Assembly: GCF_001661595.2 (NCBI RefSeq)
Contig: NZ_LYPF02000017.1
Coordinates: 62,001-126,000, forward strand
Direction of reading: 5' to 3'
Length of the DNA: 64,000 nucleotides
Origin: Crocinitomix algicola
GTDB taxonomy: Bacteria; Bacteroidota; Bacteroidia; Flavobacteriales_D; Crocinitomicaceae
The notes beneath the pieces were generated by a model, which saw only the letters and a program-made list of their open reading frames with translations, was not told the origin of the DNA and ran no database searches. Both the position numbers and the translations under genes were made by a program. Positions 8,072-64,000 of the stretch are shown here, one piece after another; within the stretch, counting starts at the first letter, position 1, and each line of letters opens with the position of its first letter.

Positions 8072-9314
8072 AAGATTTGAAAATCACAGATGTATTGTGA
8101 CCTCCGAATCCAAACGTATTACTTAACGCGTACTTTACTTCTCGTTCCTGTGCTTTATTGAACGTAAAATTGAGTTTGTTATCGATTTCCGGATCATCCG
8201 TGAAATGATTAATTGTTGGAGGTACTATATTATTTTGAATTGCCTTAATACATGCAATTGCCTCAATAGCTCCAGCAGCACCAAGTAAATGACCTGTCAT
8301 TGATTTAGTTGAGGAGATATTCAAGTCATAGGCATGTTCACCAAATACATTTTTTATCGCCTTCGTTTCAGCGATATCCCCAAGCGGAGTTGAAGTACCG
8401 TGAACGTTAATATAATCAATATCTTCTGGTGAAAGATTTGCTTCTGCAAGCGCTTGTTTCATCACACTAATTGCGCCTAAACCTTCCGGATGCGGTGCAG
8501 TGATATGGTGTGCATCAGCAGATAGGCCGCTTCCCACAATTTCTGCGTAAATTTTAGCACCACGCGCTTTTGCATGTTCCAGTTCTTCAAGAATAAGTGC
8601 TCCTGAACCTTCGCCAAGAACAAAACCTTCTCGATCTACATCGAAAGGTCGTGAAGCCGTTTTAGGATCATCATTCCGAGTAGACAATGCTTTCAACGCA
8701 TTAAATCCGCCAACCCCAGGTTCATTAACACATGCTTCAGAACCTCCCGAAATAATGACATCTGCTTTGTTCAACCTTATCAAATTGAAGGCATCAATCA
8801 TCGCATTGTTGGATGAAGCACATGCTGACACAGTAACATAGTTTGGTCCTCTAAAACCGTATTTCATTGAAATATGGCCGGCAGCAATATCAACAATCAT
8901 TTTTGGAATAAAAAATGGGTTGAATCGAGGTGTACCATCACCAGAAGCAAAAGAACTTGCTTCTTCTTGGAAGGTTGTCAATCCACCTATTCCAGAGCCC
9001 CAGATAACACCAGCTCTATCGAGGTTAAGATTTTCCACATTTAAACCCGAGTCCACCATAGCTTCAGCGGTAGAAACTATGGCGTACTGAGAAAATGGGT
9101 CTAATCTTCTCGCTTCCCTACGATCTATATGATCTTCAACATTGAAGTTCTTCAGCTCGCAAGCAAACTGAGTTTTAAATTTTTCAGCATCAAACTTTGT
9201 GATTTTTGCAGCACCACTCACCCCAGAAACTAAACCTTGCCAATATTCATCTGTAGTGTTTCCTATTGGTGTTAACGCTCCTAGTCCAGTTATTACTACT
9301 CTTTTCAACTCCAT
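8061..9314 (-). CDS. fabF: 3-oxoacyl-[acyl-carrier-protein] synthase II
   Basis: Elongating condensing enzyme of fatty-acid synthesis. It is 417 residues long with the Cys-His-His triad visible: Cys in TVSACASSNN (about 164), His in NVHGTSTPLGD and His in KSMTGHLLGAAGA. The C terminus SNTFGFGGHNTSVIF is diagnostic. It lies 38 bp downstream of acpP and overlaps rnc, forming a leftward operon. Confidence 0.97.
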   Translation of the reverse strand: MELKRVVITGLGALTPIGNTTDEYWQGLVSGVSGAAKITKFDAEKFKTQFACELKNFNVEDHIDRREARRLDPFSQYAIVSTAEAMVDSGLNVENLNLDRAGVIWGSGIGGLTTFQEEASSFASGDGTPRFNPFFIPKMIVDIAAGHISMKYGFRGPNYVTVSACASSNNAMIDAFNLIRLNKADVIISGGSEACVNEPGVGGFNALKALSTRNDDPKTASRPFDVDREGFVLGEGSGALILEELEHAKARGAKIYAEIVGSGLSADAHHITAPHPEGLGAISVMKQALAEANLSPEDIDYINVHGTSTPLGDIAETKAIKNVFGEHAYDLNISSTKSMTGHLLGAAGAIEAIACIKAIQNNIVPPTINHFTDDPEIDNKLNFTFNKAQEREVKYALSNTFGFGGHNTSVIFKSYED

Positions 9315-36611: not shown

Positions 36612-37751
36612 ATGCCGAATGTTCATCTAAGAGAAAGAAAATTAAAAGACGGAGTAGTTGGATTCTACTTGGACTACTATGTGAGTGGAACTCGCTACTA
36701 TGAAACATTGGATATTAAAATTCGACCTGAGTACGATAAGAAAACTCAAAAAGCACTTAGAAACAAAGCAGAATCAATTCTTTTAAGTAAACGATCTGCG
36801 ATTCTAGTCAATCAACACCCAGAAGTTTTTAAGAGAGATTTAGAACGTGGCAGAGGTAATTTCTTCATTTTGTTTGAAGAAATGAAAGAATTGCGTAAAC
36901 AGACGTCTCCAAACACTTATAGCGTATGGGATAATGTAGAGAAATTACTTGAAAAGTTTCATGGTTCAAAACAGTTAGAATATCGACATGTGAATCTAAA
37001 TTTCTGTCAACGATTTCTTGCGTTTTTAAGAAAGTACAAACACCCTACCAAAGGAACGTTCGCGAATAGCTCTATTCTTACCTATTACAGGAAGTTTCAA
37101 AGTGTAGTAAAAGAAGCTCATAAAATGGGCCTTATTAGAGAGGATTACTCTTCAATGGTTAAGCGTCCACCAAAGGATAAACGAGACGAGATAACACGAG
37201 ATACTTTAACTATTAATGAGATAAAAGCTATCAAAGAAACGCCATTCTTTAACCCAGATATAAAAAATGCTTTTCTATTTGCTTGTTTTACAGGTTTAAG
37301 AGTTTCGGATTTACGCAGGTTAACGTGGAAAGATATTTCACTCATAAATAGTGCTGAAGGTGATAAAGATACTATTTACATTATAGAATTACAACAAAAG
37401 AAAACAAGAAAGCCAGTAGTGATCCCATTCACTCAGGATACGTTTGATTTGATAGGTAAGAAACGAGGATTAGACGAAGACAATGTTTTCACTATTCCTG
37501 ATACAAGTGGATCAGCTAGTAGAACTGTACGTAGGTTGTTAGAACGTGTTGACTGTGACTCTCTAAAAAAGAAGAAAATCACTTTCCATTCGGCTCGACA
37601 TACTTTTGCTACACTATGTGTAAATTCTTTTGGGGATATGTATGCTACCCAACGATTGATGGGACATCGATCAAGCAAGTCAACGGAAGGTTATGCACAA
37701 AAAGAAGTTTCCTCATTAGTCAAAGCGATCAAACAATTACCCTCATTATAA
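36612..37751 (+). CDS. Tyrosine recombinase / phage-type integrase
   Basis: A 379-residue site-specific integrase. Residues 1-90 form an arm-binding region (LRERKLKDGVVGFYLDYYV), then a SAM-like core-binding domain (about 100-200) and the catalytic domain. Catalytic residues visible: Arg in FTGLRVSDLRRLTW, HxxR at 326-329 in HSARHTF, His in MGHRSSKST (352) and Tyr361 in EGYAQKE. Such genes mark integrative elements. It begins 39 bp after the lysS terminator stem and points into the accessory region; the att core could not be identified. Confidence 0.93.
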   Translation: MPNVHLRERKLKDGVVGFYLDYYVSGTRYYETLDIKIRPEYDKKTQKALRNKAESILLSKRSAILVNQHPEVFKRDLERGRGNFFILFEEMKELRKQTSPNTYSVWDNVEKLLEKFHGSKQLEYRHVNLNFCQRFLAFLRKYKHPTKGTFANSSILTYYRKFQSVVKEAHKMGLIREDYSSMVKRPPKDKRDEITRDTLTINEIKAIKETPFFNPDIKNAFLFACFTGLRVSDLRRLTWKDISLINSAEGDKDTIYIIELQQKKTRKPVVIPFTQDTFDLIGKKRGLDEDNVFTIPDTSGSASRTVRRLLERVDCDSLKKKKITFHSARHTFATLCVNSFGDMYATQRLMGHRSSKSTEGYAQKEVSSLVKAIKQLPSL

Positions 37752-55174: not shown

Positions 55175-55762
55175 ATGAGCGTTAAAGGAAGTAAAACTGC
55201 CTGTTCTGGGCTAGATTGGAATGTCATGTTGGGTCTTTTGGCCCAACTTAAAAAAGACAAGAAGTGGCAAGATTATCTCTTGATTTGTATTGGTTCATAC
55301 CTCGGATTAAGAGCATCCGACTTACTTAATTTAAAATGGGATGACATCTTGGGTAAATCAACCTTGGAGCTAAAGGAAGGTAAAACTGGAAAGTCAAGAT
55401 CAATTCGAATAAATCCGAATTGCTTAAATGCAGTTGAATTCGTCTGGAATCATCAACCTAAAAAACACTTTCATACAATAGATCACTTCATTTTTGTAAA
55501 TCGAAGAGGTAAGAAGATTTCCCTCCAATACATTAATAGAAGGCTCAAAACCATCTTTGAAGAATACAAAGTGAAAACGGACAATCCAAGTACACACACC
55601 TTAAGAAAGACATTCGGAAGACGGGTTTACGAAATGGACGATCAAAGCGAAAGAAGCTTGATCATGTTGTCAATGATCTTCTCGCATTCCAATATTGCAA
55701 TTACAAAGCGATATTTAGGAATAACACAAGAAGAGATTCAGGACGTTTATTTGAGCCTTTAA
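55175..55762 (+). CDS. Tyrosine recombinase, catalytic domain only
   Basis: 195 residues. Arg in YLGLRASDLLNLKW, HxxR in HTLRKTFGRR, His in FSHSNIAITKRY with the Tyr. The N-terminal core-binding domain of normal integrases is absent, yet the gene has its own start and a plausible leader, so it may be a genuine short recombinase rather than debris. It lies between the redox island and the modification-related unit and converges on it (4-bp overlap of stops). Confidence 0.85.
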   Translation: MSVKGSKTACSGLDWNVMLGLLAQLKKDKKWQDYLLICIGSYLGLRASDLLNLKWDDILGKSTLELKEGKTGKSRSIRINPNCLNAVEFVWNHQPKKHFHTIDHFIFVNRRGKKISLQYINRRLKTIFEEYKVKTDNPSTHTLRKTFGRRVYEMDDQSERSLIMLSMIFSHSNIAITKRYLGITQEEIQDVYLSL

Positions 55763-56313
55763 TGCCTCCCCAATATTGGTTGTAGTTCCCTTGCTAGATT
55801 TGATTCTATAACCTGCATTAGCAAAGCCATGTCTTGACTAAAGGGAATGTAATTTAATCTCACTTTTAACCCAATTTGTTTAGCCCAATGATATAACTGC
55901 AAACCTTGAGTATTGTGGTTGTGATAGTAACCTAGATGTACATAAAACCGTCCTCTCATATTACTTTTTACTTTCCCAACATATAGCACTTTTGAAGTGT
56001 TTGAATACGACTTCTTTATAGCGGGTGTAGCCTTCTTTTTAAGGTCTTTATATTGCTTGTGTGAATTATAAACATCAATTGTTGTATTCTCGGATATCAC
56101 TTCAAACCAATACAATACAGGAGTTTTATTTATTTCGCTCAATGTGGTGAAGAATGGTTCTAGTTGCCCAAAATCCTCAGCTCTTTTACCACATGAATCT
56201 GGAAGATTTTTACAATCAATTTCTAAAGAATCAACTTGTAAGTCGGCTTTTATTGTACTCTCAAGGGAATTAGAAAGAACTTGACAAAAACGTTTTATAG
56301 AATCGACACTCAT
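55759..56313 (-). CDS. Divergent GIY-YIG-like protein
   Basis: 184 residues. The second half resembles a GIY-YIG fold: VLYWFEVI in place of GIY, SKVLYVGKVKSNMRGRFYVH in place of YIG with a basic patch, and a late Glu in ESNLARELQPILG. If so, it would be a nuclease. First half (1-60) unrecognised. It is the last gene of the leftward unit. Confidence 0.5.
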   Translation of the reverse strand: MSVDSIKRFCQVLSNSLESTIKADLQVDSLEIDCKNLPDSCGKRAEDFGQLEPFFTTLSEINKTPVLYWFEVISENTTIDVYNSHKQYKDLKKKATPAIKKSYSNTSKVLYVGKVKSNMRGRFYVHLGYYHNHNTQGLQLYHWAKQIGLKVRLNYIPFSQDMALLMQVIESNLARELQPILGRH

Positions 56314-56354
56314 TTGAATTGTAATTTGACCACAAAATAATTAATCACATTGTT

Positions 56355-57386
56355 TTACAAAGTCTTCAATCTCACTATTTTCCTATTGGAAACAAGTTTA
56401 GGGTTATCTCTTAGCCTTTGATACACTCCAAACTGACAAAGTCCAACTTCTAAACCATAAACTTTGAGGTCGTTCTGATCATCTTTAAAGATTCTCTTTT
56501 CGTTAACTATTATATTATGCATTGATTCATCAACTTCAAATTCTCCGAAGAGTTCTTTTTGATGATGTCTTAACCAAACCACTCTATCGCCATAGTTAAA
56601 TTCTCGAGGAGAAATATTCGGAAACAATAATTGTAAAACCTTCTTTGCTCCTGGTCCAGGTACGCAAAATGGTTCATCATGATTTACATTTATTTTCGGA
56701 TTGATACTGTTGGAAATTGCACAATGATATCCATAATACTGCCCAACACCTTTGGTTGAAGAGACATTCTTATATAGCTCTTGCAAACTTTGAGCGTTGA
56801 TGATTTTATAAATTAATCCACTTTCAATAAAACTAGCTACCCATAGCATTATGTTTATGGGATACAAGTTTCGTTTTTTACCTTCTTTTATAGATACAAA
56901 TGTATTTGCAGCTTCAAGTAAACTTGTTCTTAATTCTGTTCTACCATAGATATGATTACCTTTCCTTCTTGCATCATTTAAATTCTCATTAATCCAATCT
57001 TTGTATTTCTGATCAACAAGCAACCTTTTAAAATCAATTAGAGCATTTTTCGGATTACCTTCTTTAGTGGCTATTTGATGAATACCCCTCGCACCATAAA
57101 AGTGTGAGATAATTGTATTACAAACAATGTTTTCAATATCAATATCTGACAAAACAATATTCTCAGCGATATATCTTGTTCGATCATCATAAGTGATAAA
57201 CAAAGGGAAGTACTCTGTTGACAAACTTAAAGCAACAACACCATGATCGTTATAGCTATTTTTTATCCCAAGCTTGAATAATGCTTGGTTGTTTATTTGA
57301 TGAAAAAAGAACTTAATTTCAGAAAGAGTTTCTTTGTCAATTATGTCAAATGGTAGTAAGTTGTCCTTTAAATTGGTGAATTTCAT
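56355..57386 (-). CDS. aGPT-pyrophosphorylase/ADDT-like protein
   Basis: 343 residues. A C-terminal half block GQYYGYHCAISNSINPKIN followed by FCVPGPGAKKVLQLLFP (about 240-256) aligns with GTFLAYQLITDVNY and VKAGPGAIEGIQKCF of the 42699 gene, placing both in the superfamily that includes the DNA-base amino-acid transferases and thymine pyrophosphorylases. The N-terminal part differs. Substrate unknown. It lies between the GIY-YIG-like and HTH genes. Confidence 0.5.
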   Translation of the reverse strand: MKFTNLKDNLLPFDIIDKETLSEIKFFFHQINNQALFKLGIKNSYNDHGVVALSLSTEYFPLFITYDDRTRYIAENIVLSDIDIENIVCNTIISHFYGARGIHQIATKEGNPKNALIDFKRLLVDQKYKDWINENLNDARRKGNHIYGRTELRTSLLEAANTFVSIKEGKKRNLYPINIMLWVASFIESGLIYKIINAQSLQELYKNVSSTKGVGQYYGYHCAISNSINPKINVNHDEPFCVPGPGAKKVLQLLFPNISPREFNYGDRVVWLRHHQKELFGEFEVDESMHNIIVNEKRIFKDDQNDLKVYGLEVGLCQFGVYQRLRDNPKLVSNRKIVRLKTL

Positions 57387-57506
57387 TATGCTTATCTTTT
57401 GATAAAGATATGCATTAAACTCACCCCTGATTCCATCTCAAGCAACTGAAATATAACGCTTTAACTCCTTCGGCACTCCTATCACTTTTATAGGAGAAAA
57501 TAAAAA

Positions 57507-57788
57507 TCAACTTTCTATTTCTGACTCAATAATTCGAATTGTCTCATCATACGGACGAAGCAGATCATCTACAGATCTTTCAAGAGCCAATGCTATTCGA
57601 TAAGCACTTGAAATGGAAGTATTCACACCTGCAGTTTCAATACGCTTGATTTGAGCCAAACCGATATCTGCCTCATTTGCTAAATCTAATTGCGTATATC
57701 CTTTGACTTTTCTATACTCGGCAACATTCCGAGCCATTCTTCGGATCAACTCTTCGTTATGGGCGTATTTTAAACCTTCATTACTCAC
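57507..57788 (-). CDS. XRE-family HTH regulator
   Basis: 93 residues. Helix-turn-helix VAEYRKVKGYTQLDLANEAD with recognition helix AQIKRIETAG and tail ALERSVDDLLRPYDE. It heads the leftward unit. Operator-like repeats lie 36-62 bp upstream. Confidence 0.9.
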   Translation of the reverse strand: MSNEGLKYAHNEELIRRMARNVAEYRKVKGYTQLDLANEADIGLAQIKRIETAGVNTSISSAYRIALALERSVDDLLRPYDETIRIIESEIES

Positions 57789-57823
57789 TCGGTAAAAATG
57801 TCCACCCAGATTTTCTTTTTAGC

Positions 57824-57849
57824 ATCAAATTTGATACTTTAGTATCAAA
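57824..57849. promoter_or_regulatory. Triple half-site operator upstream of the HTH gene
   Basis: A perfect palindrome ATCAAATTTGAT (57824-57835) overlaps a second one, TTTGATAC and GTATCAAA (57830-57849, 4-bp spacer), giving three ATCAAA half-sites in 26 bp. Between two divergent genes, so it could control both. Confidence 0.6.
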
Positions 57850-57905
57850 AAAGTAAATCGGCAAAGTTTGTCGTTTTCGTCATTTAACTTTAAAATCCAT
57901 ATAAC

Positions 57906-58281
57906 ATGAGAAAACTATTCATTGCTGGAAGTGCATTATTTTTTAATTCATTTCTATTTAGTCAAGTTACATTAAACAAAACAGTACTAACTTCAAATGT
58001 TGAACAGATACAAGCAGCCGGTTCAGGAGCTTATTTCTCAACATCTTCAGATTTTTATTCTTATGCATGTGGAGATGTCGCTGAAACTCACCTTGCTAGT
58101 TCTTCAGTAAACGAGATCTTCCAAGGAGATGCGTATAGTAATGACACTTTAAGTGTTAATGAAGCTAGCTCTATTCTTTATTATGGTATTAGCAACGTCT
58201 TAACAGACGGAACAAATTCTCATAACATGTATACACCCGTAAACGCAATTACAACTGATGGTGATTCCGTTTATACCATCG
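57906..58281 (+). pseudogene. 5' fragment of a secreted-protein gene, cut by the cassette array
   Basis: A signal peptide (MRKLFIAGSALFFNSFLFSQ) and about 105 residues of a secreted, beta-rich protein, then the reading frame enters the first cassette at 58282 and stops at 58316 with an unrelated tail (NHCAQNTPL). The remainder of the gene is not in the window. The cut falls at ACCATCG/TT, the position expected for integron-type insertion. Confidence 0.7.
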
Positions 58282-58715
58282 TTGTAAACCATTGCGCCCA
58301 AAACACCCCACTGTAAACGGAACTTATTCGGCGGAAGTTTAACTTGAACAAGATCGTTCACAAAACCTAAGCGGAACTTGACAAATAAATTACTGACATT
58401 TATGGCAACCAATTTTTGTGGTTTGGGTAGGAACCAAAACGTAGAATATGTCCCAAGAATTGGAATGTCGAATAAAAAATTTAAGTGTCTCACTATTCAA
58501 GCTTCGGTTTTGACTCGGGAAGTGTTTCGTGTGTAGTGCAATTAGAACGGAACAAAGCGCAACAAAAACGGTTCACAACAACAACTAAAAATCACTGCCT
58601 CGCTTATCCCACCCGCGGGAAGCGCCCGTTGAGTGCCCAGTAGTCGGGTAGCCAACGCACAAAGTTGCCTGCGCACGTCGCGACGCAAATAAAATTTGCT
58701 ATTTTTAGTCAAACG
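58282..58715 (+). mobile_element. Gene-less integron-like cassette, copy 1
   Basis: 434 bp, about 96% identical (17 substitutions and 1 indel by my reading) to 61523-61957. Homology begins and ends at the cassette boundaries. It has no convincing ORF. Its attC-like part runs 58570-58717: left box GGTTCACAAC is complementary (9/10) to the cassette start GTTGTAAACC; inner arms ACTAAAAAT and ATTTTTAGT; CCAACG, CGTTGG and GCAAAT/ATTTGC hairpins inside. Confidence 0.75.
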
Positions 58716-58740
58716 TTGGGTACAATACGAAAACAAATAG

Positions 58741-59877
58741 ATGAGCGAAAATACTTTTGGAAAATATTTAGATAATTATGCCTCAAAAACGATAATTACC
58801 TTATTCGGTTTAGTGGCTGCTTTTGTAACAATATACGCATTTTGGCAAGAGAAAACTGTTGACTTGAGATATGAAATCATAGCTAATACCAATGTACTTG
58901 ACTTTAATGCCGACATCAATAAACTTGAAGTACTCTACGATAGTACAAGTCTTAAGAAAACTGGAGAAAACTTAAGGATATATACAGTAAAAATAGTCAA
59001 CAATGGACAAGAAAATATAATTAAAGAATTTTACGATGAAAATGAGCCTGTTGGAATAAAAATAACTTCTGGTAAAATAATTGAAAAACCAGAAATCATC
59101 CAATCGAGTAACGACTATTTAAAAAGAAATGTAAAATTCACTGAAACAGAAAACGAAGGCTTCTTATTTTCAAATGTAATAATTGAATCAGGCGAATATT
59201 TTACTATCAAACTTCTTGTATTACACAAAAACAGTAATATTCCACAGATTAAATCTTATGGAAAAATAGCAGGACAACAAAAAATTGATGTTGTTAATGC
59301 TGTTGATGTTAAAGAGGAAATGACTTTTTTAAAAAAAGTATATTATGGCAGTTTTTGGACTCAACTACTTCGATTGGTTTCATATTTCATAATAGGTATA
59401 TTAATCATTGCGATTTTTGCATTAACATCTCAAAAAATTGACTCTTCAAGAGAAAAGAAACGTAAAAAGAAAAATTTAAGTGAGTTTAAAAATTTAAAAA
59501 CATATCAATATACTCGAATGGATGACGCCATTTTTGACAGGTATTTAGACAATGGTGGTTACGAACTTAAGAGAATGTCAAAACTGATTGAAAACGAGAA
59601 AGAGTTAAATGACACATACAGAGAACTTTCAGAACAAGTAAAAAGTAAAGAATACAGAAGATACAGAATTGGTGGAGAGGATTGGTCCGTAATCAACGAA
59701 ATGTTGAATGACGGAATTGTTTTCAAGGAAAATGAAAAATTAAGTATTAATCAAGCTATGAAGGATACTTTAGAGAAGTTTTTAAACTTTTTAACTGATA
59801 AAGGAGAGTTCAAGAGAAAGCATAAATACTATCCTTATGACATCGAAAGGAGAGTTGTAATTGAAAAAGACGAATAA
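58741..59877 (+). CDS. Cassette gene: membrane protein of unknown function
   Basis: 378 residues with hydrophobic segments at about 14-33 and 207-228, a mainly extracytoplasmic part between and a charged C-terminal half (RKKKNLSEFKNL, RRYRIGGEDWSVINEML). No family recognised. Starts 25 bp into its cassette (58716-60012). Confidence 0.65.
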   Translation: MSENTFGKYLDNYASKTIITLFGLVAAFVTIYAFWQEKTVDLRYEIIANTNVLDFNADINKLEVLYDSTSLKKTGENLRIYTVKIVNNGQENIIKEFYDENEPVGIKITSGKIIEKPEIIQSSNDYLKRNVKFTETENEGFLFSNVIIESGEYFTIKLLVLHKNSNIPQIKSYGKIAGQQKIDVVNAVDVKEEMTFLKKVYYGSFWTQLLRLVSYFIIGILIIAIFALTSQKIDSSREKKRKKKNLSEFKNLKTYQYTRMDDAIFDRYLDNGGYELKRMSKLIENEKELNDTYRELSEQVKSKEYRRYRIGGEDWSVINEMLNDGIVFKENEKLSINQAMKDTLEKFLNFLTDKGEFKRKHKYYPYDIERRVVIEKDE

Positions 59878-59884
59878 AAAGTAC

Positions 59885-60017
59885 TGTACCCAACAATGGC
59901 TATAAGTAATTGCTTGTTCTCGCCTACTTCTGAAAATCCTCGCGGATTTTCAGTTTGGTGTGTACTTGCAAAGTTAAGTGCTAAACCACGCAACTACTCA
60001 TAGCCGATACCGTTAGC
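59885..60017 (+). mobile_element. attC-like site of cassette 58716-60012
   Basis: Left box TGTACCCAAC (59885-59894) is the exact complement of the cassette's start GTTGGGTACA. Inner arms GGCTATAAGTAATTGC (59898-59913) and GCAACTACTCATAGCC (59990-60005) pair 14 of 16. The tip has the hairpin GAAAATCC/GGATTTTC. Right core CGATACCGTTAG. Confidence 0.75.
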
Positions 60018-60035
60018 TGTAATTTAAACCAACCA

Positions 60036-60854
60036 ATGAACAAAGAACCAAAACCGAAAACGTTATTACTATCTATCGGATTTATAATCCTGTTTGTGGT
60101 AATATTTGTAGTACTTTCCCAAATAAAACAATTTTTACCAGAAAATCTTGAACGATATTCTCACGGAATATTAGGCACAATCTCTGCTTTTGCAACGATT
60201 GGGTTGTTTTTAAAGTTCGAAAAGAAAAAGCTGAAAGATTACGGATTAGTTTGGGAAAAGAATACACCAAAAAAAATTATAATCGGAATTGCAATTGGAA
60301 TGATTCTCGCACTCATAATGATTTTCTCGCAAGTGCTTATAAGCGGTTTGGAAATAACGGTTTCCGAAAACCAAAACTTCCAAACCATTTTAATCTCAAT
60401 ACCGGCGATTTTGATTTTAGCCTTTATGGAAGAGCTTGCATTTAGGTCGTATCCGTTTATTAAATTGAATAAACAATTCGGATTAAGAACAACCCAATTT
60501 TTAATTGCAATCTTGTTTGCTCTTTACCACGTTGCAAATGGATGGTCAATCGGATTATCCTTTCTCGGACCTGGAATTTGGTCATTGGCTTATGGTCTGT
60601 CAGCTGTTGCATCGAAAGGAATTTCTGTGCCAACTGGCTTACACAGCGGAGTGAATATAATTCTCGCATTATTTATCGGGAAAAAAAATATTGAAAGTCT
60701 TTGGGTAATCGATTTTCCAACGGAAGTTTCGGAAAATGTAATCATAGCCAATCAAAATGTTGGAATAATAATTCACGTCAGTCTATTAGTGCTGTGTATA
60801 ATTACAACTGAAATATATTTACGGAAGAAAAAAACTACAGCTAACAATGTATAA
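60036..60854 (+). CDS. Cassette gene: CPBP-family intramembrane metalloprotease
   Basis: 272 residues with about eight hydrophobic segments. CPBP (Abi) motifs: EELAFRSYPF (EExxxR), FALYHVANGW (FxxxH) and HSGVNIIL. Members include CAAX proteases and bacteriocin self-immunity proteins. Starts 23 bp into its cassette (60013-60965). Confidence 0.87.
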   Translation: MNKEPKPKTLLLSIGFIILFVVIFVVLSQIKQFLPENLERYSHGILGTISAFATIGLFLKFEKKKLKDYGLVWEKNTPKKIIIGIAIGMILALIMIFSQVLISGLEITVSENQNFQTILISIPAILILAFMEELAFRSYPFIKLNKQFGLRTTQFLIAILFALYHVANGWSIGLSFLGPGIWSLAYGLSAVASKGISVPTGLHSGVNIILALFIGKKNIESLWVIDFPTEVSENVIIANQNVGIIIHVSLLVLCIITTEIYLRKKKTTANNV

Positions 60855-60969
60855 CCGCAATTACGGCGGATTCGACTACGTCCGAATCCACTCGGAATTG
60901 CTAAAGTCAGTGCCAAACCGAAAATTAACGCATATAAACCCGTAACTGACGGTTATACGAGACCGTTGT
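60836..60969 (+). mobile_element. attC-like site of cassette 60013-60965
   Basis: Left box TACAGCTAAC (60836-60845) is the exact complement of the cassette's start GTTAGCTGTA. Arms GTATAACCG and CGGTTATAC are perfect; CAATTACGG and CCGTAACTG pair 8 of 9, with one extra base (60949) between, as in extrahelical bases of attC. Right core CGAGACCGTTG. A GGATTCG/CGAATCC hairpin lies in the tip. Confidence 0.75.
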
Positions 60970-60983
60970 AAACTATTACGTGA

Positions 60984-61472
60984 ATGAAATTTAAACTCAG
61001 GAAAAAAGAAGCAAAAAAAAACTTGTTAGCTGGTTTAGTTAATCTACTTGTGCTTATATATTTTTCTCGTCAAATTTTAAAAAATAAAGCTGTCTCAGAG
61101 GAGTTTTCGTACATTATACAATCAGTAGTTGCTGTTCTTGTGATTATACTTTTGGTTAACACTTATATAAAAATGAAGAAATTGATAATTCTTGATTTGA
61201 CGGAGGAAAATTTAAAATATCAATATATCCGGAATAAAATTGAAAAAAATTCCATTAGGAAGATTGATTTAATACATGGCCATGTTAATTCTTTTGCTCT
61301 TGTTTTCATGAAAAATCAACCAGAATCGAAAATTTATCAATTGCGAAATAAGTATTTTAATTATAAATACGGAACCCCATATTTAATTAATTTGGATAAA
61401 ATAGAAGGAGAAGTAACGGAAACCTATCAAAAATTATTAGAATGGAAGAAAACAGTTTATAACAACAAATAA
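60984..61472 (+). CDS. Cassette gene: two-pass membrane protein of unknown function
   Basis: 162 residues, hydrophobic segments at about 14-32 and 44-62, then a soluble C-terminal half (LTEENLKYQYIRNKIEKNS). PH-like fold possible but not shown. Its stop lies inside the left box region of the attC-like site that follows. Confidence 0.6.
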   Translation: MKFKLRKKEAKKNLLAGLVNLLVLIYFSRQILKNKAVSEEFSYIIQSVVAVLVIILLVNTYIKMKKLIILDLTEENLKYQYIRNKIEKNSIRKIDLIHGHVNSFALVFMKNQPESKIYQLRNKYFNYKYGTPYLINLDKIEGEVTETYQKLLEWKKTVYNNK

Positions 61473-61526
61473 AATTTACCGCTAAAGCGGTTCGGCATAA
61501 AATGCCTAATTTTATTTAACCGTTGT
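61454..61526 (+). mobile_element. Short attC-like site of cassette 60966-61522
   Basis: Left box AGTTTATAAC (61454-61463) is complementary to the cassette's start GTTGTAAACT at 9 of 10. Arms AAATAAAATTTA and TAATTTTATTT. Two small hairpins (ACCGC/GCGGT, GGCAT/ATGCC) fill the tip. Right core ACCGTTGT. Confidence 0.65.
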
Positions 61527-61957
61527 AAACCATTGCGCCCAAAACACCCCACTGTAAACGGAACTTATTCGGCGGAAGATTAACGTGAACAAGATCGTTC
61601 ATAAAACCTAAGCGGAACTTCACAAATAAATTACTGACATTTATCGCAACTAATTTTTGTGGTTTGGGTAGGAACCAAAACGTAGAATATGTCTCGTGAA
61701 TTGGAATGTCGAATAAGAAATTTAAGTGTCTCACTATTCAAACTTCGGTTTTGACTCGGGGAAGTGTTTCGTGTGTAGAGCAATTAGAACGGAACAAAGC
61801 GCGACAAAAACGGTTCACAACAACAACTAAAAATCACTCCCTCGCTTATCCCACCCGCGGGAAGCGCCCGTTGCGTGCCCAGAAGTCGGGTAGCCAACGC
61901 ACAAAGTTGCCAGCGCACGTCGCGACGCAAATAAAATTTGCTATTTTTAGTCAAACG
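61523..61957 (+). mobile_element. Gene-less integron-like cassette, copy 2
   Basis: 435 bp, the near-identical partner of 58282-58715, same orientation, with attC-like part 61812-61959. Because the two copies flank other cassettes, recombination or repeated capture can move the genes between them. Confidence 0.75.
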
Positions 61958-61973
61958 TTGGCGGTAATTAAAT

Positions 61974-62456
61974 ATGCAATATTCTATCGATAATAATACA
62001 CTAAGCTTAACTGTAAAAAAGTCGCATTTTATCCTAAGATTTTTATTATACTTTATGTCTTGTGTAATCTTACTCGGCCCCATTATTGGTTTTATTATTT
62101 CGATTAAAAGCGGACAACCTTTTCACTTCAAATTTCTCATTGGAATGGCTATATCTTCAATTATAGGGTTTTATATCTTAAGATTCGCTTTATGGAATTC
62201 ATTTGGTAAAGAAATAATTGAATTAAGCCCTGAATCAATTTCCTATACTACTGACTACAAAATTTATCGTGACAAAAAAAATCATAAAAGAGAAGGAAAC
62301 CTTACTTTCTCATACAATCCAATAGGATACATCGAAGACCAAATGGGTTGTCTAACTATCAATACTGGGACGGGTACAATCCAATCTGTTGTGAAAATGC
62401 CCATTATTGATATTAACACTTTAATAAAAGAGTTAAATACAATCAACAATCTGTAA
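61974..62456 (+). CDS. Cassette gene: two-pass membrane protein of unknown function
   Basis: 160 residues; hydrophobic segments at about 20-42 and 52-71, then a beta-rich soluble part (ISYTTDYKIYRDKKNHKREG). Starts 16 bp into its cassette (start 61958, GTTGGCGGTA). The expected complement TACCGCCAAC is not found after the gene; TTACACCAAC at 62501-62510 is a weak candidate. Confidence 0.6.
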   Translation: MQYSIDNNTLSLTVKKSHFILRFLLYFMSCVILLGPIIGFIISIKSGQPFHFKFLIGMAISSIIGFYILRFALWNSFGKEIIELSPESISYTTDYKIYRDKKNHKREGNLTFSYNPIGYIEDQMGCLTINTGTGTIQSVVKMPIIDINTLIKELNTINNL

Positions 62457-62564
62457 TAATTAAAGGTTGGAAAAATCTTATTTGACAAAATAACTTATAT
62501 TTACACCAACTATCTGTTAATCCTTTTAAAAACAAGGACTTCTTATTTGATAGCTACTTGACAA

Positions 62565-64000
62565 ATGGAAGAAAAAGAATTAAAATCACTTATTAAAGAA
62601 CTAGTTACTTACTCTAACGAAACAGAATGGGTAGAATTCAAATTAAACTACCATTCTAATGAAGAAATAGGTGAAAGGATTTCCGCCTTAGCAAATGGAG
62701 CTTGCTTAAATAAAAAACAATACGGATTTTTAATTTTCGGAGTAGAAGATAAAACACACAACATCAAAGGAACAACCTTCAAAGTAAAATCAGCGAAGAA
62801 AGGAAAAGAGGAATTAGAAAATTGGCTAATACAACGCTTAGACCCAAGAATAGATTTTAAAACATATGAATTTTTCTATTCCGAAGACATTAGAATTAGT
62901 ATGTATGTTATTCCTGCCGCTGTAAATAGACCTGTTAAGTTTACTAATCAAGCATATATAAGAATCGGCAGTTATACCCGATTACTTAAAGATTTCCCTG
63001 ACAAAGAAGCTAAGATTTGGAACAGAAAAAACAATATAAAGTTTGAACTTCAATTAGCAAAAGAAAACTTGGATTCTGATTCTGTAGTTTCTTTATTAGA
63101 CACCCATACATATTTCGATTTACTTAAACTTCCTTATCCTTCAAATCGTCAGGGAGTTATAGACAAATTTATTTCTGAAAATTTAGTAGAGAAAAAGACC
63201 ACTAAATATTCAATAACCAATCTTGGAGCAATTCTATTTGCAAAAAACTTAGATGATTTTCCCGACTTAAAAAGAAAAGCAATTAGAGTAATTGTGTACA
63301 AACACAATAATAAAATAGAAACCATTAGGGAGCAAATCGGAGGGAAAGGTTATGTTTCTGGCTATCAGGGTTTAATTGATTGGGTAAATAGTCAGCTACC
63401 TGCCAATGAAGAAATTGGAAAAGCATTTAGAGATGATAAAAGAATGTACCCCGAAATTGCTGTTCGTGAATTACTAGCCAATGCAATCATACACCAAGAT
63501 TTCGAAGAAAAAGGATTTCCTATGGTTGAAATATTCTCTGATAGAATTGAAATCACCAACCCAGGAATTCCTCTAATCACCCCCGAAAGATTTATTGACG
63601 AATACCAATCCCGAAATGATACACTAGCTGATTTAATGAGAAGGCTTGGAATATGTGAAGAAAAAGGAAGTGGTATTGATAAAGTAATATTTTATAACGA
63701 AGTCTATCAACTTCCTGCTCCCGAAATTCTAATCCAAGAAAAACATACAAAAGTTATTATGTACTCATACAAGACTCTTAATCAAATGGACAAAAAAGAT
63801 AAGATTAGAGCTTGCTATCAACATTGCTGTTTAAGATATGTTTCAAACGATAAAATGACAAATCAATCATTAAGAGACCGTTTTCAAATTGAAAGTAAAA
63901 ATGCTGCTATTGCATCAAGAATAATAAAGGAAGCTTTGACTGCTAAAGTTATAAAAGAAGATGACCCTGAAAGTAATTCAAGAAAATACAAAAAATATAT
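62565..64000 (+). CDS. AlbA_2-domain/HATPase-like protein, 3' end missing
   Basis: About 478 residues visible before the window edge. The N-terminal AlbA_2 (Schlafen-type) DNA-binding domain reads ETEWVEFKLNYHSNEEIGER and GFLIFGVEDKTHNIKG. A linker is followed by an ATPase-like domain with YPEIAVRELLANAIIHQDF (EILANAxxH motif) and GSGIDKVIF. Such proteins are often in mobile or defence regions as transcription regulators or effectors. Confidence 0.85.
   Translation, partial: MEEKELKSLIKELVTYSNETEWVEFKLNYHSNEEIGERISALANGACLNKKQYGFLIFGVEDKTHNIKGTTFKVKSAKKGKEELENWLIQRLDPRIDFKTYEFFYSEDIRISMYVIPAAVNRPVKFTNQAYIRIGSYTRLLKDFPDKEAKIWNRKNNIKFELQLAKENLDSDSVVSLLDTHTYFDLLKLPYPSNRQGVIDKFISENLVEKKTTKYSITNLGAILFAKNLDDFPDLKRKAIRVIVYKHNNKIETIREQIGGKGYVSGYQGLIDWVNSQLPANEEIGKAFRDDKRMYPEIAVRELLANAIIHQDFEEKGFPMVEIFSDRIEITNPGIPLITPERFIDEYQSRNDTLADLMRRLGICEEKGSGIDKVIFYNEVYQLPAPEILIQEKHTKVIMYSYKTLNQMDKKDKIRACYQHCCLRYVSNDKMTNQSLRDRFQIESKNAAIASRIIKEALTAKVIKEDDPESNSRKYKKY

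Follow-up and report, generated by a model that had tools for sequence, protein, structure and literature searches.

The 64,000-nucleotide stretch of DNA analyzed here, hereafter the window, comes from the genome of Crocinitomix algicola, a member of the Bacteroidota (contig NZ_LYPF02000017.1, positions 62,001 to 126,000). From position 58281 to its end at 64000 the window is filled with integron-like gene cassettes, six of which start inside it, and the array continues past the window end. A single plan for the units can be read directly from the sequence: a cassette starts with GTT, carries one gene, reaches a box (R″) that is the reverse complement of its own start, and is followed by a palindrome that extends up to the next GTT. 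Window coordinates equal those of L049, a 20-kb stretch, plus 54999; L, C and G numbers denote our loci, contigs and genomes. The features, including open reading frames (ORFs), are:

58281–58579, + strand: cassette X, ORF-less, 299 nt (L049 3282–3580); start GTTGTAAACC; R″ box GGTTCACAAC at 58570–58579, 9/10
58580–58714, + strand: site palindrome of X, subtype C, 135 nt; ends in ATTTTTAGTCAAAC, then GTT
58715–59894, + strand: cassette 1; ORF 58741–59877, 378 aa, no Pfam match; R″ 59885–59894, 10/10
59895–60011, + strand: site palindrome of cassette 1, subtype B, 117 nt; circular-form DNA fold z −5.12; used in the alignment for covariance model R1 (below)
60012–60845, + strand: cassette 2; ORF 60036–60854, 272 aa, CAAX protease Rce1-like (PF02517); R″ 60836–60845, 10/10
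60846–60964, + strand: site palindrome of cassette 2, subtype B, 119 nt; fold z −5.30; also in the R1 alignment
60965–61463, + strand: cassette 3; ORF 60984–61472, 162 aa, no Pfam match; R″ 61454–61463, 9/10
61464–61521, + strand: site palindrome of cassette 3, subtype A, 58 nt; fold z −5.27
61522–61821, + strand: cassette X′, second copy of the ORF-less X; R″ 61812–61821, 9/10
61822–61956, + strand: site palindrome of X′, subtype C, 135 nt, as read from the sequence
61957–64000, + strand: cassette 4, cut by the window end; R″ TACCGCCAAC at 64106–64115, outside the window, 10/10
61974–62456 and 62565–64016, + strand: ORFs of cassette 4, 160 aa and 483 aa, the second with SLFN_AlbA_2 and RecG-type HATPase_c_4 domains
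57906–58316, + strand: host ORF, 136 aa; its reading frame enters cassette X at 58281

The initial annotation of this interval had proposed that the start of each cassette is complementary to the left box of its own palindrome, and the sequence bears this out: GTTGGGTACA at 58715 pairs with TGTACCCAAC at 59885–59894 in 10 of 10 positions (cassette 1), GTTAGCTGTA at 60012 with TACAGCTAAC at 60836–60845 in 10 of 10 (cassette 2), and GTTGTAAACT at 60965 with AGTTTATAAC at 61454–61463 in nine of 10 (cassette 3). It had made the proposal hang on further cassettes; the same pairing is found in the rest of the array, in other arrays and in other species. To the right the array continues, cassettes 4 (10/10), 5 (10/10) and 6 (9/10) each being closed by pairing; cassette 5 holds a NUDIX-like protein and a 1129-aa protein, cassette 6 a 306-aa protein and an ABC-type ATPase. 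Two repeats of ∼430 nt, starting at 58281 and 61522, are ORF-less cassettes plus their sites; X has no ORF of at least 75 aa. Only two of the three palindromes have the ends thought to be shared, AACAATG..AATT and CGAKACCGTT; the third is of another subtype (AACAACAAATAAAATT..TTTAACCGTTG). Sites in the window measure 58–135 nt between the boxes, or ∼78–155 nt with the two 10-nt boxes; elsewhere they range from 38 nt up to, in genome G097, 123–181 nt. A passage of PMC3053210 gives 57–141 bp as the size range of attC sites. The stop codon of the cassette 2 ORF falls within the site, and an Rfam scan of 56000–64000 gave no match. The pattern AACAATGN{4,14}AATT was tried as a genome-wide site marker and rejected as not specific (148 places vs 65 for the reversed control).

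The strength of the pairing is best judged in G097, a complete genome from the same family, where 32 cassettes were delimited by conserved inner site cores alone, leaving the boxes unused. Among these cassettes (25 distinct start/box pairs) a start matches its own box at 6.38 of seven free positions, 22 of the 32 being perfect, and non-own boxes at 3.21; the observed own-pair sum was reached in 0 of 20,000 permutations. L240 and L246 yielded no site with the core pattern used for G097. Four circular-form sites fold with z between −5.1 and −6.5, none of 200 shuffles folding as well, and each shows an R stem, an asymmetric loop and an L stem, with the right spacer longer than the left. A blind search for 10-mer pairs returned 13 in L049 against a shuffle mean of 8.55, and two against 6.4 in L044; such a search is noisy, and the signal lies in pairs combined with hairpins at fixed positions.

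The array in the window (contig C9) is not the only one in the genome: paired cassettes are also found on contigs C20, C42, C4 and C31. From these arrays we curated 24 cassettes with at least 9/10 pairing, which by that choice are no evidence for pairing itself. Twenty-two are coding, some with two genes, and all 22 of these are in array orientation. The first ATG lies 12–54 nt after GTT in 20 of the 22, and the last stop falls between −18 and +21 nt of the R″ end, again in 20. The 55 array ORFs that were scanned include ParD/ParE, HigB, an HI1420-type antitoxin, AriA, NUDIX, GNAT, DUF3427, ResIII and helicase families, together with a type IV restriction enzyme (PADLOC 6.9e-237).

The initial annotation had described attC-like cassettes without a nearby integron integrase, and for this genome the description is accurate. 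Four tyrosine recombinases (PF00589) are present: two that group with Xer, one of 380 aa and one of 195 aa that is catalytic-only. With the NCBI model TIGR02249 as the criterion for IntI (cut-off 265 bits), a search of the genome found none of the four over the cut-off. Throughout the order, none of 399 genomes has an IntI over the cut-off when its best candidates, at most five, are scored. In the phylum it occurs in 105 of 395 genomes, only one of them (G438) among the 98 of the window's class, as counted from rows. Within the Bacteroidetes proper, a passage of PMC9024848 names a complete integron in one organism, Salinibacter ruber M1, besides Chlorobi and Ignavibacteriae. By contrast, a covariance model built from 12 subtype-B sites (R1) had at least one match in 164 of the 399 genomes of the order, in 121 of 238 high-quality genomes and in 52 of 70 genera, counts that are lowered by scoring no more than eight candidates in each genome.

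We read loci in context around some of the best proteins below the IntI cut-off. In relatives, arrays begin 34–320 nt 3′ of a tyrosine recombinase gene, and a hairpin that terminates in GTT precedes the first cassette. Twelve of 16 loci with enough sequence have a start with a partner of at least 9/10 located 40–210 nt after the stop, a count that concerns the pair only and has no control. A strict adjacency test demanded a pair plus a hairpin, with the cassette start within 350 nt 3′ of the recombinase stop; L051 and L121, with under 700 nt downstream, were left out. Nine of 20 loci from the order were positive (0.2 expected from shuffles), or eight of 17 once L099, L101 and L112, which had been fetched because of nearby sites, are set aside. 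Loci named in a blind protein scan were taken as the best 80 among the matches listed, of which 34 + 37 were used, eight short ones and, by oversight, L201, for which no pair was seen, being left out. Among the 34 from named Bacteroidota, with L150 included though titled only ‘bacterium’, 15 were positive (0.0 expected), for example Seonamhaeicola aphaedonensis, Algoriphagus ornithinivorans, Zunongwangia mangrovi and Aquiflexum. The 37 other recombinases gave one positive (0.1 expected), L162. Four loci (L123, L127, L128 and L133) fail on the hairpin alone, each having a pair of at least 9/10.

The array-linked recombinases come in four groups, of 274–282 aa (I), 376–393 aa (II), 467–552 aa (III) and 279–296 aa with one of 375 (IV); that of L098, with 277 aa, is encoded divergently from its array. 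Behind the integrase of G097 we recognised 21 sites (four in L124, 17 in L242), and in G181, from the window's own genus, a 378-aa recombinase, a hairpin and a cassette are present (L114). The record of L162 is titled Spirochaetota and is a metagenome-assembled genome; its cassette start lies 97 nt after the recombinase, with a 10/10 pair and a hairpin.

In close relatives the attI-like hairpin between recombinase and array is conserved up to GTT and differing cassettes stand behind it; in integrons, attI is the site next to the integrase at which cassettes are inserted. Identity over the 40 nt before GTT and the 150 nt after it is 0.93 and 0.48 for L118/L119, 1.00 and 0.53 for L050/L051, 0.82 and 0.48 for L127/L052, and 0.65 and 0.53 for L101/L112; L118 and L119 share a 5.1 kb match (70.7%) that ends at the attI-like GTT. 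No attI-like site adjoins the array in the window.

The recombinases themselves differ from IntI in one conspicuous respect. The stretch corresponding to residues ∼171–256 of IntI1 comprises 86 residues in IntI1 itself and in each of the 18 IntI rows that were extracted correctly (from 20 loci), as against 44–45 in every one of the 21 group I–IV rows and 44 in L098; L232 is missing from this comparison for want of an ORF. The array-linked recombinases lack the ∼42-residue IntI insertion, the domain around patch III, and a phmmer alignment against IntI4 (2a3v) leaves residues ∼181–244 unaligned. Within this region of IntI4, according to a passage of PMC3053210, K209, Y210, W219, P232, H240 and H241 contact extrahelical attC bases. 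The additional domain is presented as one of the defining characteristics of IntI in a passage of PMC9668308, and the portion of PMC8138268 at hand calls the insertion ‘not fully conserved’ in an integron-like subgroup yet ‘essential for integron function’.

IntI forms one clade (99.9/100) in a tree calculated from 78 sequences over 276 columns, and groups I–IV fall outside it; L218 and L173 (wrong ORF taken), L230 (long fused frame) and the 195-aa protein (a fragment) were left out. Six recombinases of the array-linked kind score 204–231 bits with TIGR02249, below its cut-off. With NF040815 (XerA, cut-off 220 bits) four of the six are over (L050 230.6, L052 221.9, L056 222.5, L061 245.5) and two under (L099 217.6, L098 218.1). 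The solved structures nearest to the L099 recombinase by sequence are 4a8e (140.6 bits), IntI4 2a3v (134.0) and 5hxy (122.3); Foldseek with a model of the L124 protein returned 5hxy (2e-15), 4a8e (9e-15) and 2a3v (4e-14). A related catalytic domain is also found in recombinases of Proteobacteria encoded beside transposases that, from the downstream reading frame, we take to be of IS91 type. Like the array-linked enzymes these lack the IntI insertion in correctly read rows, but no cassettes stand behind them (15 loci of the control set for the strict test), and four of them form a clade of their own (99.5/100). Unlike XerA (4a8e, 5hxy), whose role according to a passage of PMC8138268 is chromosome dimer resolution, the array-linked recombinases adjoin cassette arrays, and those of groups II and III have an extra N-terminal region.

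In group II this region amounts to ∼75 residues, modelled with a pLDDT of 84.9. In comparisons with VIA-align, XPB rows lead (2fwr, Z 6.4, 1.8 Å over 56 residues; seven of the eight best rows, which come from two archaeal proteins), eIF1-type rows are nearly tied (Z 5.2–5.8), and the HARP domain of SMARCAL1 (4o66) follows with Z 3.9 and 2.1 Å over 49; all Z values are under 8, a level that may mean a common arrangement. With the same domain Foldseek found no match at E ≤ 0.001, and the best hit of a profile search against the PDB (E 0.028) was judged unrelated. Pfam reported HARP in one of 19 members (0.002) and DUF5710 in two (best 1e-4). HARP/XPB-type domains bind branched DNA; our guess is that the N-terminal domain might help to read folded sites. 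Group I proteins and four of the five group IV proteins are too short to contain it.

Taken together, these analyses make it very probable, on sequence grounds, that the array in the window belongs to an integron-like system with patch-less, XerA-like integrases, complete in relatives and represented here by a cluster without integrase. The reading rests on the anatomy of the units, the pairing, the conservation of attI with variable cassettes behind it, and the missing IntI insertion. In such a system a cassette would be a compact transcription unit, or a non-coding insert, held between a GTT start and a palindromic site. Since the R″ box is the reverse complement of the cassette's own start, an excised circle would carry one complete folded site. 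The putative exchange point is GTT: there the recombinase would swap strands between a folded single-stranded cassette site and the attI-like hairpin, giving insertion, or between two cassette sites, giving excision. The small N-terminal domain of some recombinases could aid in binding folded DNA. The arrays of the window's genome would be clusters left behind without an integrase, or else served in trans, because no array-linked recombinase was found in this genome.

IntI with its extra domain serves both to define integrons and to find them. The system described here is probably integron-like in its working and, by the IntI criterion, is not a member. A more general proposal, to which we give about an even chance, is that Bacteroidia harbor a second kind of integron, in which patch-less XerA-like recombinases read folded single-stranded sites without the IntI insertion (in groups II and III perhaps by means of an N-terminal domain with the HARP/XPB junction-binding fold), in which the platform site is a hairpin and insertion maybe joins two folded sites, and which is widespread where the standard integrase search finds almost none.

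Several observations weigh against the interpretation. The genome of the window contains none of the array-linked recombinases, and no homologue of the possibly interrupted left ORF, and hence no empty insertion site of the array, was found in 39 relatives. The strict adjacency test failed in 11 of the 20 loci of the order and in 19 of the 34 named Bacteroidota loci. The counts from model R1 rest on rough E-values and were made without control genomes. The recombinase tree has weak support in its backbone, and in sequence and in fold IntI4 is nearly as close a match as XerA. Finally, the classical cores are GTTRRRY and RYYYAAC; all 24 curated starts have GTT, but only four have the full GTTRRRY.

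The strongest alternative is that the arrays are remnants of classical integrons, their ordinary attC cassettes having belonged to a patch-bearing IntI since lost, with the patch-less recombinases as bystanders. Site anatomy resembles that of classical attC, true IntI is common elsewhere in the phylum and G438, of the same class, has one. We nonetheless consider this explanation improbable: starts with GTTRRRY are few, no IntI over the cut-off was found among the 399 genomes of the order as against 164 with a single site subtype, and it is patch-less recombinases, followed by a conserved attI-like hairpin, that directly precede the arrays. Far less credit still can be given to the idea that the arrays here are moved by another resident recombinase, be it XerC/XerD or the 195-aa protein, which is one of only four in the genome and is encoded 2.5 kb from the array. 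Xer-type proteins are also found in 14 control genomes. Close relatives of the 195-aa protein (41–46% identity) occur in only three of 98 other genomes, and their three neighborhoods (∼1.5 kb on each side) contain no cassette array. Beside L251 there is a 10/10 pair, but it falls within coding sequence of mobile-element-like character and has no hairpin between its halves; a few 9/10 pairs are present on the other side. Genus mates that have sites (G181, G232, G278) show only Xer-level matches to the protein. It is hardly credible that the pairing is an accident and that the palindromes are no more than dispersed repeats or terminators of an ordinary kind, for although palindromes behind genes are common and the blind pair search is noisy, the permutations in G097, the uniform gene orientation and the conserved attI followed by variable cassettes all contradict it.

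The integron-like system we favor shares much with classical integrons, including the sedentary chromosomal ones: single-gene cassettes in one orientation, palindromic sites, R″ and R′ complementary within the cassette, a platform site beside the integrase gene, toxin-antitoxin and defence cassettes, long arrays and integrase-less clusters. It departs from them in its integrase, which lacks the IntI insertion and falls outside the IntI clade, and which, in the loci read, lies just upstream of the array and points to it. L098, with its integrase divergent from the array as in classical integrons, is the exception to this layout, no systematic search for divergent layouts having been made. Further differences are that the attI-like site is a hairpin, that most starts are not GTTRRRY and that the right spacer of folded sites is longer than the left. 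The window array, with at least six sites in a genome without IntI, also resembles the clusters termed CALIN (at least two attC sites by the attC covariance model of IntegronFinder, no integrase); unlike these, its sister platforms carry a non-IntI integrase. Among the papers listed in searches of open-licence PubMed Central, none was seen to describe such a system.

If the interpretation is correct, the extra domain of IntI is not needed for cassette capture, and integron-like storage extends to an order with IntI in 0 of 399 genomes. The recombinases would serve for comparison in studies of the reading of folded single-stranded DNA, and part of the accessory genes (toxin-antitoxin, restriction, membrane proteins) would be explained as cassettes. 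Cassette capture may be wider than current searches detect. The loci also put to the test the statement, in the portion of PMC8138268 cited above, that the insertion is ‘essential for integron function’.

A number of further features were recorded. The 136-aa ORF at 57906–58316 is possibly a gene interrupted by the array, which would make the junction an insertion point. The 380-aa recombinase (window 37260–37706; C9:99260–99706) matches those of L098 and L099 at 25–28% and is only distantly like the array-linked groups. The 195-aa catalytic-only recombinase occupies 55175–55762, 2.5 kb left of the array; a 61-aa piece of it is 93% identical in G308. In two species of one genus the integrase gene is broken (L112:8173–8921 and L101:∼8600–8872) while the attI-like site and cassettes remain, which suggests integrase loss in progress. 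Group III genes (L050, L052, L054, L055) have an upstream motif, GCGTATATC.., related in inverted form to a downstream motif, GTGGATATATACGC, present in L052–L055; the integrase gene appears as if between two sites.

A non-coding element, ‘P’, was found with a 168-nt query at L048:55–222 and at 22 other places in the genome of the window (C31, C20, C4, C13), with three copies on C13. It lies directly 5′ of many cassettes and is promoter-like by eye. Its 3′ hairpin, ATATAAAGGAATAAAAGCC..TTTTATTTGACC followed by GTT, resembles the attI-like hairpin of group II integrases: the best local score is 22, against shuffled maxima of 17 (L126) and 18 (L124), with L125 and L114 not above the shuffled maxima. 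Element P is possibly a mobile promoter-plus-attI cassette. Repetition is also seen among the relatives: G002 has two successive cassettes of equal length and with equal boxes (L099:13793–15249), and L120:7399–11835 holds a 1394-nt duplicate of 100% identity.

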